Of a stretch of 64,000 nt of DNA, positions 28,378-62,659 are shown piece after piece; within the stretch, counting starts at the first letter, position 1, and every line of letters begins with the position of its first letter. Location: contig NC_015588.1 in NCBI RefSeq assembly GCF_000215105.1, positions 3,038,001 to 3,102,000 of the forward strand. Direction: 5' to 3'. The stretch is from Isoptericola variabilis 225. Lineage in GTDB: Bacteria > Actinomycetota > Actinomycetes > Actinomycetales > Cellulomonadaceae. The notes beneath the pieces are model-generated. The model was not told the DNA's origin. It made no database searches and saw nothing but the letters and a program-made list of their open reading frames with translations. The position numbers and the translations under genes were made by a program.

Positions 28378-29028
28378 TCAGCGCTGCTGCTGCTCGAGCC
28401 GCGTCGCGAGCACGGCGGCCTGCACCCGGCGCTCGAGGCCGAGCTTGGCGAGCAGGCTCGACACGTAGTTCTTGACCGTCTTCTCGGCGAGGAACAGCTC
28501 GGCGCCGATCTGGCGGTTGGTCATGCCCTGCCCGATGAGCGCGAGGATCCGCTGCTCCTGGGCGGTCAGCCCGGCGAGCGGGTCGTCCTCCGGGCGCTCC
28601 TGCGCGCGCATGCGCTCCATCACGCGGCCCGCGGCGCGCGGGTCGAGCGTCGAGCCCCCGGCCGCGACCGTGCGGATCGCGGCGACCAGGTCCGTGCCGC
28701 GCACCTGCTTGAGCACGTAGCCGGCGGCGCCGGCGAGGATCGCGTCGAACAGGGCCTCGTCGTCGTCGAAGGACGTGAGCATGAGGCACGCGACGTCGAG
28801 CCGGGACCGCAGCTCACGGCACACGGAGACGCCGTCGCCGTCGGGCAGCCGCACGTCGAGGACGACGACGTCGGGACGCAGCGCCGGCACGCGCGTCAGG
28901 GCCTCGGCGCACGTGCCCGCCTCGCCGACGACCTCGAGGCCGGGCTCGGTCTCGAGGAGGTCGGCGACGCCGCGGCGGACCACCTCGTGGTCGTCCACGA
29001 GGAAGATCCGCACGGTCGTGGTGGTCAC
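28378..29028 (-). CDS. devR: NarL-type response regulator DevR/DosR
   Basis: A 216-residue regulator from the GTG at 29026-29028 (another GTG at 29035-29037 would add three residues). The receiver domain has [11 protein letters not shown], the phospho-acceptor Asp58 in [13 protein letters not shown] and the conserved Lys in YVLKQVRG. The LuxR-type helix-turn-helix includes [22 protein letters not shown] and [19 protein letters not shown], nearly the same recognition helix as mycobacterial DevR. That fits the DosR box at 26684. Immediately upstream of its start lies a 20-bp-phased repeat array (29061-29111). Confidence 0.92.
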
Positions 29029-29060
29029 GGCGTCCACGCTACGCCTCACCGCCACCCCCG

Positions 29061-29111
29061 CGAGGTAGCGCACGATCCGCCGAGGTAGCGCTCCACACGC
29101 CGAGGTAGCGC
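29061..29111 (+). repeat. 20-bp-phased repeat array A (3 copies)
   Basis: CGAGGTAGCGC occurs at 29061, 29081 and 29101, exactly 20 bases apart. The extended core is CGCCGAGGTAGCGC, followed by six variable bases. The array fills the gap between the 3' end of the S4-protein gene (stop at 29124) and the devR start. The same motif forms arrays at 29506-29595 and 55394-55464. Confidence 0.9.
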
Positions 29112-29123
29112 AGGGGCGGGCCG

Positions 29124-29486
29124 CTACCCGCGCCGCAGACCGCGCAGCCGGTCGATCTCGCGCCGCTCGCGCTTGGTCGGCCGCCCGGCGCCGCGCTCGC
29201 GGAGCCCGACGACGGCACGCTCCTCCCGGGTCGGCACCGGCGGGCTCTGGTCCTCGTAGGCCTCGACCGCGAGCGGCGCCCCGACCCGCTTGGGCAGGAG
29301 CTCCTTGACGACGACGATGCGGTCGCGCAGCGGGTCGCGCCACGTCACGCGGTCGCCGACCTTGACCGGCGTCGACGGCTTGGCCACGACTCCGTTGACG
29401 CGGACCCGCCCGGCACGCAGCAGCGACGCCGAGGCCGACCGGCTCTTGAAGAGCCGCACCGCCCACAGCCAGACGTCCACCCGCAT
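29124..29486 (-). CDS. S4-domain RNA-binding protein (Hsp15/RqcP-like)
   Basis: A 120-residue protein from the ATG at 29484-29486. The S4 fold fills residues 1-70 ([21 protein letters not shown], then [21 protein letters not shown]), with a basic C-terminal tail ([19 protein letters not shown]). Hsp15/RqcP-type proteins bind 50S subunits carrying stalled peptidyl-tRNA, and a ribosome-rescue role is likely. It is flanked on both sides by the phased repeat arrays. Confidence 0.88.
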
Positions 29487-29505
29487 GTCCACCACCCTCT
29501 CACGC

Positions 29506-29595
29506 CGAGGCAGAGCGAAACCCGGCGAGGGAGAACGCTCTCGCGCTCTCCCTCGCCGGGTGTTCTTCTCCCTCGCCCGGTGCGGTTCTACCTCG
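29506..29595. repeat. 20-bp-phased repeat array B (5 copies, two orientations)
   Basis: On the plus strand CGAGGCAGAGC is at 29506 and CGAGGGAGAAC at 29526. On the minus strand CGAGGGAGAGC is at 29545-29555, CGAGGGAGAAG at 29565-29575 and CGAGGTAGAAC at 29585-29595. Spacing is 20 bases within each orientation, with an inversion in the middle that makes a large hairpin around 29521-29560. The last copy contains the TAG stop codon of the GH3 gene. Confidence 0.88.
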
Positions 29596-32089
29596 CCGGG
29601 GGGAGCTCGACCTCGGCGGTCACGACGCGGGGGTCCGCGGGGGTGACCTCGTGCACGGGCCCGGTGATCGCGACCGTGGTGCGCGGCGTCGCGGTTCCCG
29701 GGAGCTCGCGCTTGGTGACCGCCTTCGCGTTGGTGATCGCCCCGCCGGTCATGTGCTGCATGTCCTCCGGGCCCTCGTCGGCCGCGGCCGCGGCGTGGGA
29801 CCCGACCCACACCTCGACGTCGCCCGGCTCGACGATCCGCACCATGCGCCGGTCGCTGAACGCGAACCGCGCGCTCGGCACGGCGAACCGCACGACGGCG
29901 GACTGCCCCGGCTCGAGCGCGACGCGCTCGTACGCGAGGAGCTGCACCACCGGCCGCGTGACCGAGCCGACGACGTCGCGCCCGTAGAGCTGCACGACGT
30001 CGGACCCGGCGACGTCGCCGGTGTTGGTGACCCGGACCGACGCGGTGAACGTGCCGCCCGCCTCGACGGCCGGGTCGACCTGGAGCTCCGAGTACGAGAA
30101 CGACGTGTACGACAGCCCGAAGCCGAAGGGCCGCAGCGGTGTCGAGTCGGTCGACGTGACGTCGGACGGACCGCCGAGCACCGGGTGCAGGTAGGAGTAC
30201 GGCTGGGCGCCGGCGGAGCGCGGCAGCGACACGGGCAGGCGGCCGGACGGGTTCACCGCACCCGCGACGACGTGGGCGATCGCGGTGCCGCCCTCCTCGC
30301 CGGGGAAGAACGCCTGCAGGACGGCCGCGGGACGGCGGTCGCCGTCGAGCGCCCAGTCGATCGCGTACGGCCGGCCCGAGAGCACGACCATGACGACGGG
30401 CGTCCCGGTCGCGAGGACCTCCTCGACCAGCCGGCGCTGCACGCCGGGCAGCTCGAGCGACTCCGAGTCGTTGCCCTCGCCCACGGTGCCGCGCCCGAAG
30501 AGGCCCGCGTGGTCCCCGACGACGACGACGGCCACGTCGGCAGTGCGCGCGGCCGCGACCGCCTCGGCGATCCCGGACGTGTCCTCGCCCTCGACGTCGC
30601 AGCCGCGCGCGTGCACGAGCTCGGGCCGCGGCAGCCCGGCCGCCGCGAACGCACCGCCGAACGCCTCGAAGACCGTGGGGATCTCGAACCCGAGCGGCTG
30701 CTCGGGGTGGTGCGCGAGCACGTGGTTGGCGAACGAGTAGCAGCCCATGAGGGCGTCGCCGCGGTGCGCGTTCGGCCCGACGACCGCGACGCGCGACGGC
30801 GCCGCGCGCCACGAGCGCAGGGGCAGCAGCCCGTCGTTGCTCAGGAGCACGACGGACTCCTCGGCCAGGCAGCGCGCGACCTCGCGGTGGCGCGGCGTGT
30901 CGAGGTCGACGACGGCGGGCGGCTCGTCCGCGAACGCGTCGTCGTCGAGCAGCCCGAGCTCCTCCTTCTGCGCGAGCGCGCGCAGCACGGCGCGGTCGAC
31001 GAACGCCTCGTCGACGAGGCCGGAGCGGACCGCCTCGGCGAGCGGCTCGAGGTAGGCGTCGCCGGCCGGGAGCTCGACGTCGATGCCCGCCGCGAGCGCC
31101 TGGGCTGCCGCCTCGCCGCGGGACGCCGCGACCTGGTGCATGACCTCGAGGAACGCGACGGCGAAGTAGTCGGCGACGACCACGCCGTCGAACCCCCACT
31201 CGTCGCGGAGCACGCCCGTGAGGTAGGTGGGGTCGGAGGCCATCGGCACGCCGTCGACCTCGGTGTAGGCGTTCATGACCGAGCGGGCGCCGCCGTCGCG
31301 CACCGCCATCTCGAACGGCGGCAGGAAGACGTCGGCGATCTCGCGCGGCCCCGCGGACACGGGCGCGTGGTTGCGCCCGGCGCGCGAGCCCGAGTACCCG
31401 GCGAAGTGCTTGAGCGTGGCGTGCACGCCGGCGTCCTGCAGGCCGCGCACGTACGCCGTGGCGACGGTCCCGACGACGTACGGGTCCTCCGCGATGCACT
31501 CGTCGACGCGGCCCCAGCGCGGGTCGCGCACGACGTCGAGCACCGGGGCGAGGCCCTGGTGGACGCCGAGCGTGCGCATGGACTCGCCGATGAGGCGGCC
31601 CATCTCCTCGACGAGCGCGGGGTCGAACGACGCACCCCACGCGAGCGGCGTGGGGAACGTCGCGGCCTTCCACGCGGCGAGGCCCGTGAGGCACTCCTCG
31701 TGCACGAGCGCGGGGATGCCGAGACGTGTCTCGGCCTTGAGCCGGCGCTGCTCGGACCACAGCCAGGCGGCGCGCTCGGCCGGGTCGACCGGGCGCGTGC
31801 CGTAGACGCGCGTGTAGTGACCGATGCCGTGCCGCGTGACGTCGGCGAGCGTCGTCGAGCCGCCCGAGGCCATCTCGCCCTGCATGGGCGCGACCACCTC
31901 GCCGCCCTGGTCGGGCCAGAACCCGACGATCTGCGCGAGCTTCTCCTCGAGCGTCATCCGCGCGTGCAGCGCGGCGACCCGGTCGGAGACGACCGGCCAC
32001 GCGGGCAGCGTCGCCGGCTGCGCCGTCGGCACCGTCGCGGACGCGTCGGTGGCCTCGGCGGCCTCGGCGGCTTCGGTCATGGGGTCCAT
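29588..32089 (-). CDS. Glycoside hydrolase family 3 (beta-glucosidase/beta-xylosidase)
   Basis: An 833-residue enzyme from the ATG at 32087-32089 with AGGAAGG before it. The TIM-barrel domain includes GVHQGLAPVLDVVRDPRWGRVDE and LKHFAGYSGSRAGRNHAPVS, and the nucleophile aspartate is in WGFDGVVVADYF (about residue 306). The alpha/beta sandwich domain follows, then a fibronectin-III-like domain from about 690 (PFGFGLSYTSFSY). There is no signal peptide, so it is cytoplasmic and cleaves oligosaccharides imported by the adjoining ABC system. It is last in the LacI-controlled operon. Its stop codon lies in a phased repeat. Confidence 0.92.
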   Translation of the reverse strand: MDPMTEAAEAAEATDASATVPTAQPATLPAWPVVSDRVAALHARMTLEEKLAQIVGFWPDQGGEVVAPMQGEMASGGSTTLADVTRHGIGHYTRVYGTRPVDPAERAAWLWSEQRRLKAETRLGIPALVHEECLTGLAAWKAATFPTPLAWGASFDPALVEEMGRLIGESMRTLGVHQGLAPVLDVVRDPRWGRVDECIAEDPYVVGTVATAYVRGLQDAGVHATLKHFAGYSGSRAGRNHAPVSAGPREIADVFLPPFEMAVRDGGARSVMNAYTEVDGVPMASDPTYLTGVLRDEWGFDGVVVADYFAVAFLEVMHQVAASRGEAAAQALAAGIDVELPAGDAYLEPLAEAVRSGLVDEAFVDRAVLRALAQKEELGLLDDDAFADEPPAVVDLDTPRHREVARCLAEESVVLLSNDGLLPLRSWRAAPSRVAVVGPNAHRGDALMGCYSFANHVLAHHPEQPLGFEIPTVFEAFGGAFAAAGLPRPELVHARGCDVEGEDTSGIAEAVAAARTADVAVVVVGDHAGLFGRGTVGEGNDSESLELPGVQRRLVEEVLATGTPVVMVVLSGRPYAIDWALDGDRRPAAVLQAFFPGEEGGTAIAHVVAGAVNPSGRLPVSLPRSAGAQPYSYLHPVLGGPSDVTSTDSTPLRPFGFGLSYTSFSYSELQVDPAVEAGGTFTASVRVTNTGDVAGSDVVQLYGRDVVGSVTRPVVQLLAYERVALEPGQSAVVRFAVPSARFAFSDRRMVRIVEPGDVEVWVGSHAAAAADEGPEDMQHMTGGAITNAKAVTKRELPGTATPRTTVAITGPVHEVTPADPRVVTAEVELPPAR

Positions 32090-49141: not shown

Positions 49142-49236
49142 GGGTCCTCCTCAACGGTCGAGAAGGGGGCCCGGCGTGCGGTGCGCCCGGTGCACGACGG
49201 CGCCCGGGCGGCGCGCACGCAGGGATCGAGAAGCCC

Positions 49237-49319
49237 GACTTCCTCCACCGGTGCTAACCGGATCAGGTTCGAGGGTCTGCGGTGTCCCGCACTCTCAGCG
49301 CCCGTGGCGCTCCCCTGTC
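49237..49319 (-). promoter_or_regulatory. TPP (THI-box) riboswitch
   Basis: Read on the minus strand: ACAGGGGAGCG at the 5' end, the pyrimidine-sensing CTGAGAGTGCGG, then AACCTGATCCGGTTAGCACCG and GGAGGAAG. These are the conserved TPP aptamer segments. It lies about 100 bases upstream of the thiamine-binding-protein gene. Binding of thiamine pyrophosphate would switch off the import operon. Confidence 0.95.
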
Positions 49320-49393
49320 GTATCAGCACGAGCCTACACACCCGCACGGGGATACGGTGTTGGTCGTCCGGAGCACAGCACCAGGGAGGTCTC

Positions 49394-55393: not shown

Positions 55394-55464
55394 CGAGGTA
55401 GCGCCTTCTCCGCCGAGGTAGCGCGTCCCGCGCCGAAGTAGCGCGTCCCGTGACGAGGCAGAAC
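55394..55464 (+). repeat. 20-bp-phased repeat array C (4 copies)
   Basis: CGAGGTAGCGC at 55394 and 55414, CGAAGTAGCGC at 55434 and CGAGGCAGAAC at 55454, all exactly 20 bases apart. The first three share the 14-base core CGCCGARGTAGCGC. The array ends six bases from the stop codon of the Rrf2 gene (minus strand), as the other arrays sit at gene 3' ends. Confidence 0.9.
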
Positions 55465-55469
55465 GCCGC

Positions 55470-55928
55470 TCAGGGGTTGTACCAGGCGCCTTCGTCCTCG
55501 GTGAGCCGGCGCACGACGTCGGGCACGGCCCCGGCCGCCAGGTCCGCGAGCGTCACGTGCTCGAGCACCGCGCGGACGTTGGCGCGCAGGGCGACCCAGA
55601 CGTGCAGCAGCGACGACGCCGCTCCTCCGTACTCGAGATCGGCGGGCCGCTCGTCCCGCACGTACACGAGCGGCCCGTCGACGGCGCGCACGACGTCGGC
55701 CACCGTGACCTCCGACGCCGGGCGCGCCAGCACGTAGCCGCCCCGCGCGCCGCGCCTGCTGCTGACGATGCCCTCGCGCCGCAGGTCGCTCAGGATGACC
55801 TCGAGGAAGCGGTGGGGCACGCCCTGGGCGCGCGCGAGCGCCTCGGCGGGAACGGGGACGCCGTCTCCCGCGGCGGCGAGCTCGGCGGCGGCGCGGACGG
55901 CGTAGTCCGCCTTCGCGGAGATCCTCAC
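55470..55928 (-). CDS. Rrf2-family regulator, cysteine-free (CymR-like)
   Basis: A 152-residue regulator from the GTG at 55926-55928. The winged helix has ISAKADYAVRAAAELA and HRFLEVILSDLRREGIVSSRRGARGGYVLARP (about residues 3-72). There is no cysteine, so it cannot hold the Fe-S cluster of IscR, NsrR or RsrR and is more like CymR, which responds to cysteine metabolism. Its start overlaps the AGE epimerase stop by four bases. The sulfur exporter gene follows, so sulfur control is inferred. Confidence 0.87.
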   Translation of the reverse strand: MRISAKADYAVRAAAELAAAGDGVPVPAEALARAQGVPHRFLEVILSDLRREGIVSSRRGARGGYVLARPASEVTVADVVRAVDGPLVYVRDERPADLEYGGAASSLLHVWVALRANVRAVLEHVTLADLAAGAVPDVVRRLTEDEGAWYNP

Positions 55929-57272: not shown

Positions 57273-57390
57273 TGTCCGGCGGCGTCCTACTCTCCCACCC
57301 CCTGGCGGGGGCAGTACCATCGGCGCTGAAGGGCTGAGCTTCCGGGTTCGGAATGGGACCGGGCGTTTCCCCTTCGCTATGACCGCCGTA
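57273..57390 (-). rRNA. rrf: 5S ribosomal RNA
   Basis: On the minus strand it begins about GTTACGGCGGTCATAGCG, includes the conserved CCCATTCCGAACCCGGAAG, and ends GGGAGAGTAGGACGCCGCC. Ends are approximate to a few bases. Confidence 0.95.
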
Positions 57391-57511
57391 ACTGTATGGA
57401 GCTGTTCGGGGTGCCCCCGGTGCCGCCGCACCTGGTGGTGTGGTGGTGGGGGTGGTGCCCGTTGCTCGGGAACCGCACAGTGGACGCGTGCATTGAAGGA
57501 GTGGGTGTTGA

Positions 57512-62659
<5,148 letters not shown>

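Follow-up and report, generated by a model that had tools for sequence, protein, structure and literature searches.

The genome of the soil bacterium Isoptericola variabilis 225, a single contig of 3,307,740 bases, contains a family of short intergenic arrays in which a unit made up of an 11-bp core and nine free bases is repeated head to tail. Tentatively, and with somewhat less than even confidence, we regard these arrays as dispersed recognition sites for a putative sequence-specific DNA-binding factor, with a placement like that of REP elements.

The window analyzed here, that is, the whole stretch of 64 kb from position 3,038,001 to 3,102,000 of the contig (72.8% G+C), holds three arrays, which together with the neighboring genes are as follows.

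28378..29037, minus strand: LuxR-type response regulator gene, downstream of array A (scanned as 28378-29028)
29061..29111, plus strand: array A, a single arm of three units CGAGGTAGCGC at 29061, 29081 and 29101
29121..29131, minus strand: degenerate unit GCGGGTAGCGG, in which the S4 gene ends (stop codon TAG) and which may be the opposite arm of array A
29124..29486, minus strand: gene of an S4-domain RNA-binding protein of 120 aa (PF01479, E 4e-14)
29506..29536, plus strand: plus arm of array B, units CGAGGCAGAGC and CGAGGGAGAAC
29520..29561: central hairpin of array B, a perfect stem of 15 bp
29545..29615, minus strand: minus arm of array B, units CGAGGGAGAGC, CGAGGGAGAAG, CGAGGTAGAAC and a weaker CGAGGTCGAGC
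29588..32089, minus strand: glycoside hydrolase family 3 (GH3) gene, ending inside array B
55394..55464, plus strand: array C, four units (CGAGGTAGCGC twice, CGAAGTAGCGC and CGAGGCAGAAC)
55470..55928, minus strand: Rrf2-family regulator gene, its stop codon 6 bp from array C

Array A was found exactly as the preliminary description of this DNA had placed it; it is antisense to the minus-strand genes on either side. For array B, the description of CGAGGNAG at 29506 and 29526 on the plus strand and at 29545-29555, 29565-29575 and 29585-29595 on the minus strand, in exact 20-base steps, needs two amendments: the unit at 29565-29575 departs from CGAGGNAGARC at its final base, and the weaker fourth minus unit (29605-29615), which falls within the end of the GH3 gene, had been overlooked. 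The GH3 gene ends at the TAG of the unit CGAGGTAGAAC. Array C, absent from the earlier description, is antisense to the adjoining Rrf2 regulator gene. At gathering thresholds, Rfam matches in the window were confined to the 5S, 23S and 16S rRNA genes (57274-62658, minus strand) and a TPP riboswitch (49223-49326), with none at the arrays.

In the whole genome, exact doublets of CGAGGNAGNNC at the 20-base step occur at 283 places (149 forward and 134 reverse), and the control pattern, read backwards, occurs at none on either strand. We further sampled 24% of the genome as 40 stretches, each of 20 kb; together with the window they make 864 kb. Among 168 same-strand neighbors within 60 bases in this sample, 151 were exactly 20 bases apart, nine were at 21 and three at 19. 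A scan of exact 9-mer repeats in its non-coding sequence over lags of 12-70 gave 1165 repeats at lag 20, 784 at 40 and 382 at 60, against 63 at 19 and 32 at 39, with lower counts at all remaining lags. Solitary exact 11-mers, with no unit within 70 bases, were nearly absent (five in 864 kb, all antisense inside genes), and the spacing is therefore not random. The idea that the step equals two helical turns was not supported: at 10.5 bp per turn, 20 bp stops about 34 degrees before two turns are complete, so that a strict one-face phasing would be lost over long arrays.

Position by position, the core reads C G A (G/C/A) G T A G C G C. On the 5' side of the core, three bases are partly conserved (C at a frequency of 0.73, then G or C) and the remainder of the unit is weakly biased, so that the "about 14 conserved bases" given earlier proved a generous count of 11 strongly conserved ones, position 4 of which is degenerate. 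What had been said of a constant core and spacing with variable parts between is in line with our counts. Of the 196 units inside arrays, 182 match the core at every base if position 4 is ignored; the other 14 show a single mismatch, and no unit shows more. In the 151 neighbors at 20 bp, core positions differ 0-8 times each, position 4 excepted (39), as opposed to 53-77 times for each spacer position. As the detection of units tolerated at most one mismatch, it was biased against decayed arrays, and for that reason the registers inside and beside arrays were also examined, a single decayed unit being bridged. Of 90 registers just outside arrays, none had fewer than two mismatches, four had two and two had three; the four represent a small excess over the 0.3% with two mismatches at random. 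Cores were kept while spacers drifted far.

Neighboring spacers are identical in 32 of the 151 pairs, probably a mark of recent tandem duplication. Between distant loci, near-identical spacers (at most one mismatch) number 69, above a mean of 19.3 and a maximum of 41 in shuffled columns, and exactly identical ones number four, within the null range around the 1.2 expected. A spacer that is identical in both facing arms of a locus was seen in 1 of 16 loci.

The sharing of spacers between distant loci is what one would expect of REP-like selfish repeats, which would spread through some process of mobilization or slippage and, having no host function, be tolerated at the 3' ends of genes. A purely selfish repeat is a serious rival, to which we assign a rather low probability. 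It would also suit the placement of the arrays at gene 3' ends and seldom in divergent gaps, their gain and loss between species, the copy number, which within one genus runs from 0 to 280 doublets, and the presence of two core types in one genome, as in window arrays A and B. On the other hand, plain copying fails to explain perfect cores beside far-diverged spacers, with no unit inside arrays here having two or more mismatches. Moreover, a search for the Y1 tyrosine transposase (RAYT) with PF01797, at E up to 0.001, gave no match in the 18 genomes of the genus, against matches in 5 of 14 known genomes used as a control. By raw count, which also bears on a possible phage origin, the doublet was seen in only six viral contigs, once in each.

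For the placement of arrays, genes were called with our own codon model instead of a published caller, and stops are firmer than starts. Arrays with CGC-type cores were present in 14 of 130 convergent gaps of the sample, in 10 of 482 tandem gaps and in 1 of 131 divergent gaps; with a generic core, the array-bearing gaps of the sample were 11 convergent, 11 tandem and one divergent. Past a stop codon, the first array in the sample lies on the strand of the gene in 34 cases and on the opposite strand in four, the minority to which window arrays A and C belong. Facing cores within 31 bases point inward in 22 pairs and outward in one, loops of 7 being common, and wherever doublets occur on both strands of a locus between 0 and 2.69 Mb the plus array lies to the left (20 of 20). 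That interval is the part of the genome covered by a locus map drawn from the first 100 of the 149 forward and the first 100 of the 134 reverse doublet places, and it holds at least 51 array loci. Loci are sparse near the terminus, with eight in 1.24-2.48 Mb compared with 37 in 0-1.24 Mb, a four- to fivefold scarcity. We take the contig to begin on the origin side, as suggested by pknB and pabA at 19 kb. A terminus-poor distribution recalls that of nucleoid-occlusion sites.

Among the array neighbors whose proteins were scanned are a PASTA kinase and a class-I glutamine amidotransferase (presumably pknB and pabA), tsaD, GCS2, L25, a release factor, an inositol-phosphate synthase, a sugar kinase and an amidase; none of 20 such proteins was a transposase. 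The S4 gene, around which the preliminary description had been built, is therefore no special neighbor, many housekeeping genes being flanked by arrays as well. By eye, 8 of 17 genomes of the genus (L071, L072, L074, L075, L076, L078, L079 and L086) have arrays with two or more units in the gap upstream of the S4 gene, in each case with the core of the species itself. That description had named random spacing and absence from close relatives and gene ends as findings that would speak against its element; the arrays proved to occur throughout the genome and also in relatives, and they are associated with gene ends.

In 12 of the 34 genes with a same-strand array, the TAG of the first unit serves as the stop codon. 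With the generic core, the stop codon is TAG in 11 of 27 genes with a downstream sense array, compared with 89 of 751 genes overall (Fisher p 9e-5). These figures would agree with a stop-codon trap: as the unit contains TAG and 20 is not a multiple of three, three or more units would stop all frames and catch read-through ribosomes. The overlap itself is tautological, because it needs a stop within the unit. Furthermore, the second core dialect of the genus, CGAGTCAG, carries a stop (TGA) on the other strand only; all four of its stop overlaps lie on the TGA strand, and yet the first arrays past stop codons are sense in nine cases and antisense in 10. A stop-codon function as a general rule is ruled out by this dialect, and we hold the trap to be highly improbable.

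The orientation switch in array B does make a hairpin, as had been proposed: the transcribed strand folds at -89.5 kcal/mol, with a z of -7.5. Array A folds no better than shuffled sequence (z +0.69). The centers of arrays often consist of a hairpin of the two inner cores, and elsewhere an unrelated GC-rich hairpin lies between the arms. Facing arrays might thus act at the RNA level, forming or extending bidirectional terminators or hairpins that protect mRNA 3' ends, an explanation that we consider fairly unlikely as the main one. In its favor are the fold of array B, the inward bias of facing pairs and the perfect stems of at least 9 found in 12 of 23 array gaps of the sample. Stems of at least 9 are also found in 18 of 54 convergent gaps without arrays, however, and mean stems are about equal (9.43 in array-free convergent gaps and 9.83 in array gaps), so that the hairpin does not require arrays. 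A terminator, in turn, could do without an exact 20-bp step and without nine units, array A is unstructured, and no U-tract was apparent by eye behind the hairpins displayed. The CGAGTCAG dialect, with three inward and three outward facing pairs, follows no orientation rule.

Spacer pairing bears on the same question. In this genome, the complementarity of facing-arm spacers in three registers (n = 16, 13 and 6) was 0.43 against a background of 0.39, 0.34 against 0.40 and 0.31 against 0.41, and selection for a long hairpin is rejected here, as facing spacers pair at background level. Together with the rarity of identical spacers in facing arms, this indicates that the individual unit is kept in this genome and not a long stem. 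At position 4, a match is nominally more frequent across facing arms (14 of 30) than across arms of different loci (298 of 870), a small raw excess in a set of 30 pairs that includes single near-match pairs possibly due to chance; other comparisons gave 9 of 16 vs. 95 of 256 and 6 of 13 vs. 99 of 211. This excess may leave room for pairing. Support for an RNA-level role also came from the two-unit arms of genus g6, whose spacers are complementary at 0.76 within loci and 0.64 between loci (0 of 20000 permutations), in 17 pairs with a 7-nt gap hand-picked among the matches listed, the loci of which may recur across related species. A slightly different set of 17 pairs, with one longer gap and one 7-nt pair absent, gave 0.77 vs. 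0.62.

The same sites were compared across species by eye. In the pabA-pknB gap, arrays are present in 5 of 18 genomes and decayed in a sixth, and three different cores are involved. In the same gap of I. luteus (L215), the hairpin is preceded by tandem copies of a short unit that agrees with the foot of a terminator-like stem, which perhaps shows how such arrays start. The gap beside L25 has full arrays in I. variabilis 225 only. There, I. halalbus has decayed units round the same terminator-like hairpin, and in G149 and G150 the hairpin stands nearly alone. Its persistence in close relatives with few or no units also counts in favor of a role at the RNA level. In G141 and G140 the L25 gap contains single units that read GT and TC at bases 5-6, the context being conserved otherwise, and a weaker copy in G146 has CC at these bases. 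The tsaD-GCS2 gap bears an array in 1 of 16 genomes, that of I. variabilis 225, and is an empty site in I. halalbus, whose TsaD is 97% identical; decayed units are found at two gaps of that species. These comparisons indicate that arrays persist at some sites through changes of dialect and are gained or lost at others.

Doublets of CGAGGTAGNNC were found in 31 of 221 genomes of the family, belonging to 4 of 25 genera: 10 of 18 genomes in the genus of I. variabilis, taken apparently as drawn by GTDB with Krasilnikoviella flava inside, 16 of 17 in g6, 4 of 7 in g15 and the single genome of g16 (1 of 1). An order-wide draw of 396 genomes gave five with a match, all in the family, and none among the 361 outside it. 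Within the genus, 10 of 18 genomes have CGAGGTAG doublets, three others have CGAGTCAG doublets (201, 167 and 42 per genome) and none has both, so the two dialects are mutually exclusive in all 13 genomes that carry either. Common to the dialects are the fixed skeleton CGAGnnAG and the 20-bp step. Bases 9-11 vary by species, being CGC in I. variabilis 225, TTC in K. flava, GAC in G147 and mostly AGC, AAC or TAC in g6. I. sp. 4D.3 carries a second family, CGAGATAGAGA, at steps of 21-22 bases (L207, 258-428), beside 20-base arrays of CGAGGTAGTTC. Five of the 18 genomes have doublets of neither pattern; one of these, I. sp. AK164, has one 20-bp array with the core AGGTAGGCA, which differs at base 11. 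No clear family of this kind was seen in the 40-100 kb sampled from each of KCTC 19046, BMS4, I. cucumis and I. luteus.

A tree built from four short proteins places G147 next to AK164 and apart from G136 and G142, which suggests that the CGAGTCAG dialect arose twice or was reversed. In this dialect, arrays occupy 14 of 98 convergent, 4 of 332 tandem and 3 of 95 divergent gaps, in a sample of 30 stretches (600 kb) of which 11 were sited on known array positions, so that these densities are not random ones. In 100 kb of K. flava, a CGAGGTAG genome, we counted three sense and two antisense first arrays and one inward pair, too few for an orientation rule. As the CGAGTCAG dialect follows no such rule, neither the hairpin nor the stop codon is the common denominator of the family. 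Common to all are the kept core, the step and the gene-end site.

Several known systems resemble the arrays in part. The nearest named kind is the GTAG-REP (BIME, REPIN), which likewise is present in hundreds of short copies between genes, for the most part downstream of a gene in convergent or co-directional gaps, has a GTAG or GGAG tetramer within the core, forms inverted pairs and falls into species-specific families. REP clusters may also be repeated in tandem (PMC3733652). Placement and GTAG agree with our arrays, whereas the palindrome and RAYT do not. The arrays are intergenic, lie at gene 3' ends and avoid divergent gaps, as REP elements do, but they differ in the unit, which in GTAG-REPs is a stem-loop with a stem of 5-13 bp and an unpaired GTAG at one end and here does not form such a palindrome. 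The 109 distinct spacers of this genome allow two pairs in 47 cases, three in 27, four in 28 and five in seven. Two outer pairs occur seven times compared with 6.5 in shuffles, and the first outer pair alone occurs 35 times compared with 27.1 (P 0.017), a slight excess. Membership of the RAYT/REP system was therefore rejected, the structure of the unit failing and Y1_Tnp not being found in the 18 genomes.

DNA uptake sequences (DUS) of the Neisseriaceae are alike in having one short word per genome and species dialects round a fixed core, and inverted pairs of them are frequent near gene ends. One word per genome is also what we found across dialects, with the exception of I. sp. 4D.3 and its two core types. 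Such a likeness might mean that the core is a watermark read by a DNA-uptake receptor and that transformation spreads the dialect of the species. The exclusive dialects on the CGAGnnAG skeleton do resemble those of DUS, which are the nearest parallel for a species-wide change of spelling (PMC3630211). DUS are scattered words, however, whereas here the copies are in tandem and solitary words are almost absent (5 vs. 196 units in arrays), and the DUS dialect paper does not use the word tandem (PMC3630211). We find a watermark of this sort very unlikely.

In iterons and centromere-like arrays, repeats of about 20 bp stand head to tail and are read by a single DNA-binding protein; these systems are present at one or few loci, at an origin or a partition site. 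The arrays described here differ in the number of loci and in their gene-end position. BOX elements of streptococci are modular and intergenic, with a variable number of inner units; the arrays displayed have no flanks like boxA or boxC, the unit is much shorter and the phase is exact. A CRISPR-type array was rejected in view of the number of loci in 2.69 Mb, the identical neighboring spacers and the ordinary neighbors among the scanned proteins. Literature searches on Isoptericola and actinobacterial repeats, terminators, REP, DUS and the nucleoid gave no description of such arrays among the matches listed, and no title about such a repeat was among the matches listed for the 10-mer GAGGTAGCGC. 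We file the arrays as dispersed gene-end repeats, outside both the GTAG-REP and the DUS families.

The core, step and gene-end site shared by all dialects point to recognition of the DNA unit by unit. We infer from them a factor, its binding and a role as boundary. According to this preferred reading, Isoptericola and its near relatives would possess a family of 20-bp-phased DNA recognition sites, with units set head to tail at 20-bp steps behind stop codons, mostly in convergent gaps. A putative factor would read the core, one copy aligned per 20 bp, and this recognition would preserve core and step while the spacers drift. Tandem duplication would let arrays grow and shrink, and the dialect of each species would be matched to its own factor. 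The row of bound proteins at gene ends could then separate converging transcription as a boundary or roadblock. In this genome, arrays also seem to flank, or themselves form, a terminator-like hairpin, and a terminator role may exist here alongside DNA recognition. A wider version, which we consider possible but doubtful, would make the arrays a chromosome-wide, iteron-like code at gene ends, depleted near ter, in which the specificity of the putative protein shifts together with its sites and which insulates converging genes or organizes the nucleoid.

Some observations weigh against recognition by a factor. A factor that changed its specificity would leave hundreds of sites to be altered one by one, whereas repeated re-seeding would account for the dialects without host function. 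Moreover, the five genomes of the genus without doublets of either pattern make the system look dispensable, and arrays turn over between species, as at the tsaD gap. The 21-22-base steps of the second family in I. sp. 4D.3, the shortfall from two helical turns, the few half-decayed units beside arrays and in I. halalbus, and the small excess of matches at position 4 also count against it. Near-perfect cores, free spacers and an exact step at hundreds of sites imply recognition by something cellular, and the exclusive dialects within one genus make the co-evolution of factor and sites testable by comparison. If a protein reader exists, the arrays would represent an undescribed element of chromosome organization or transcription boundaries in actinobacteria; if not, they would represent a new way for repeats to retain a core in the absence of a known transposase. 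Among related actinobacteria, tandem arrays of another kind, built of 17-base units, were observed in a Cryobacterium MAG (L163, 43-188) and in Promicromonospora soli (L113, 7422-7540).
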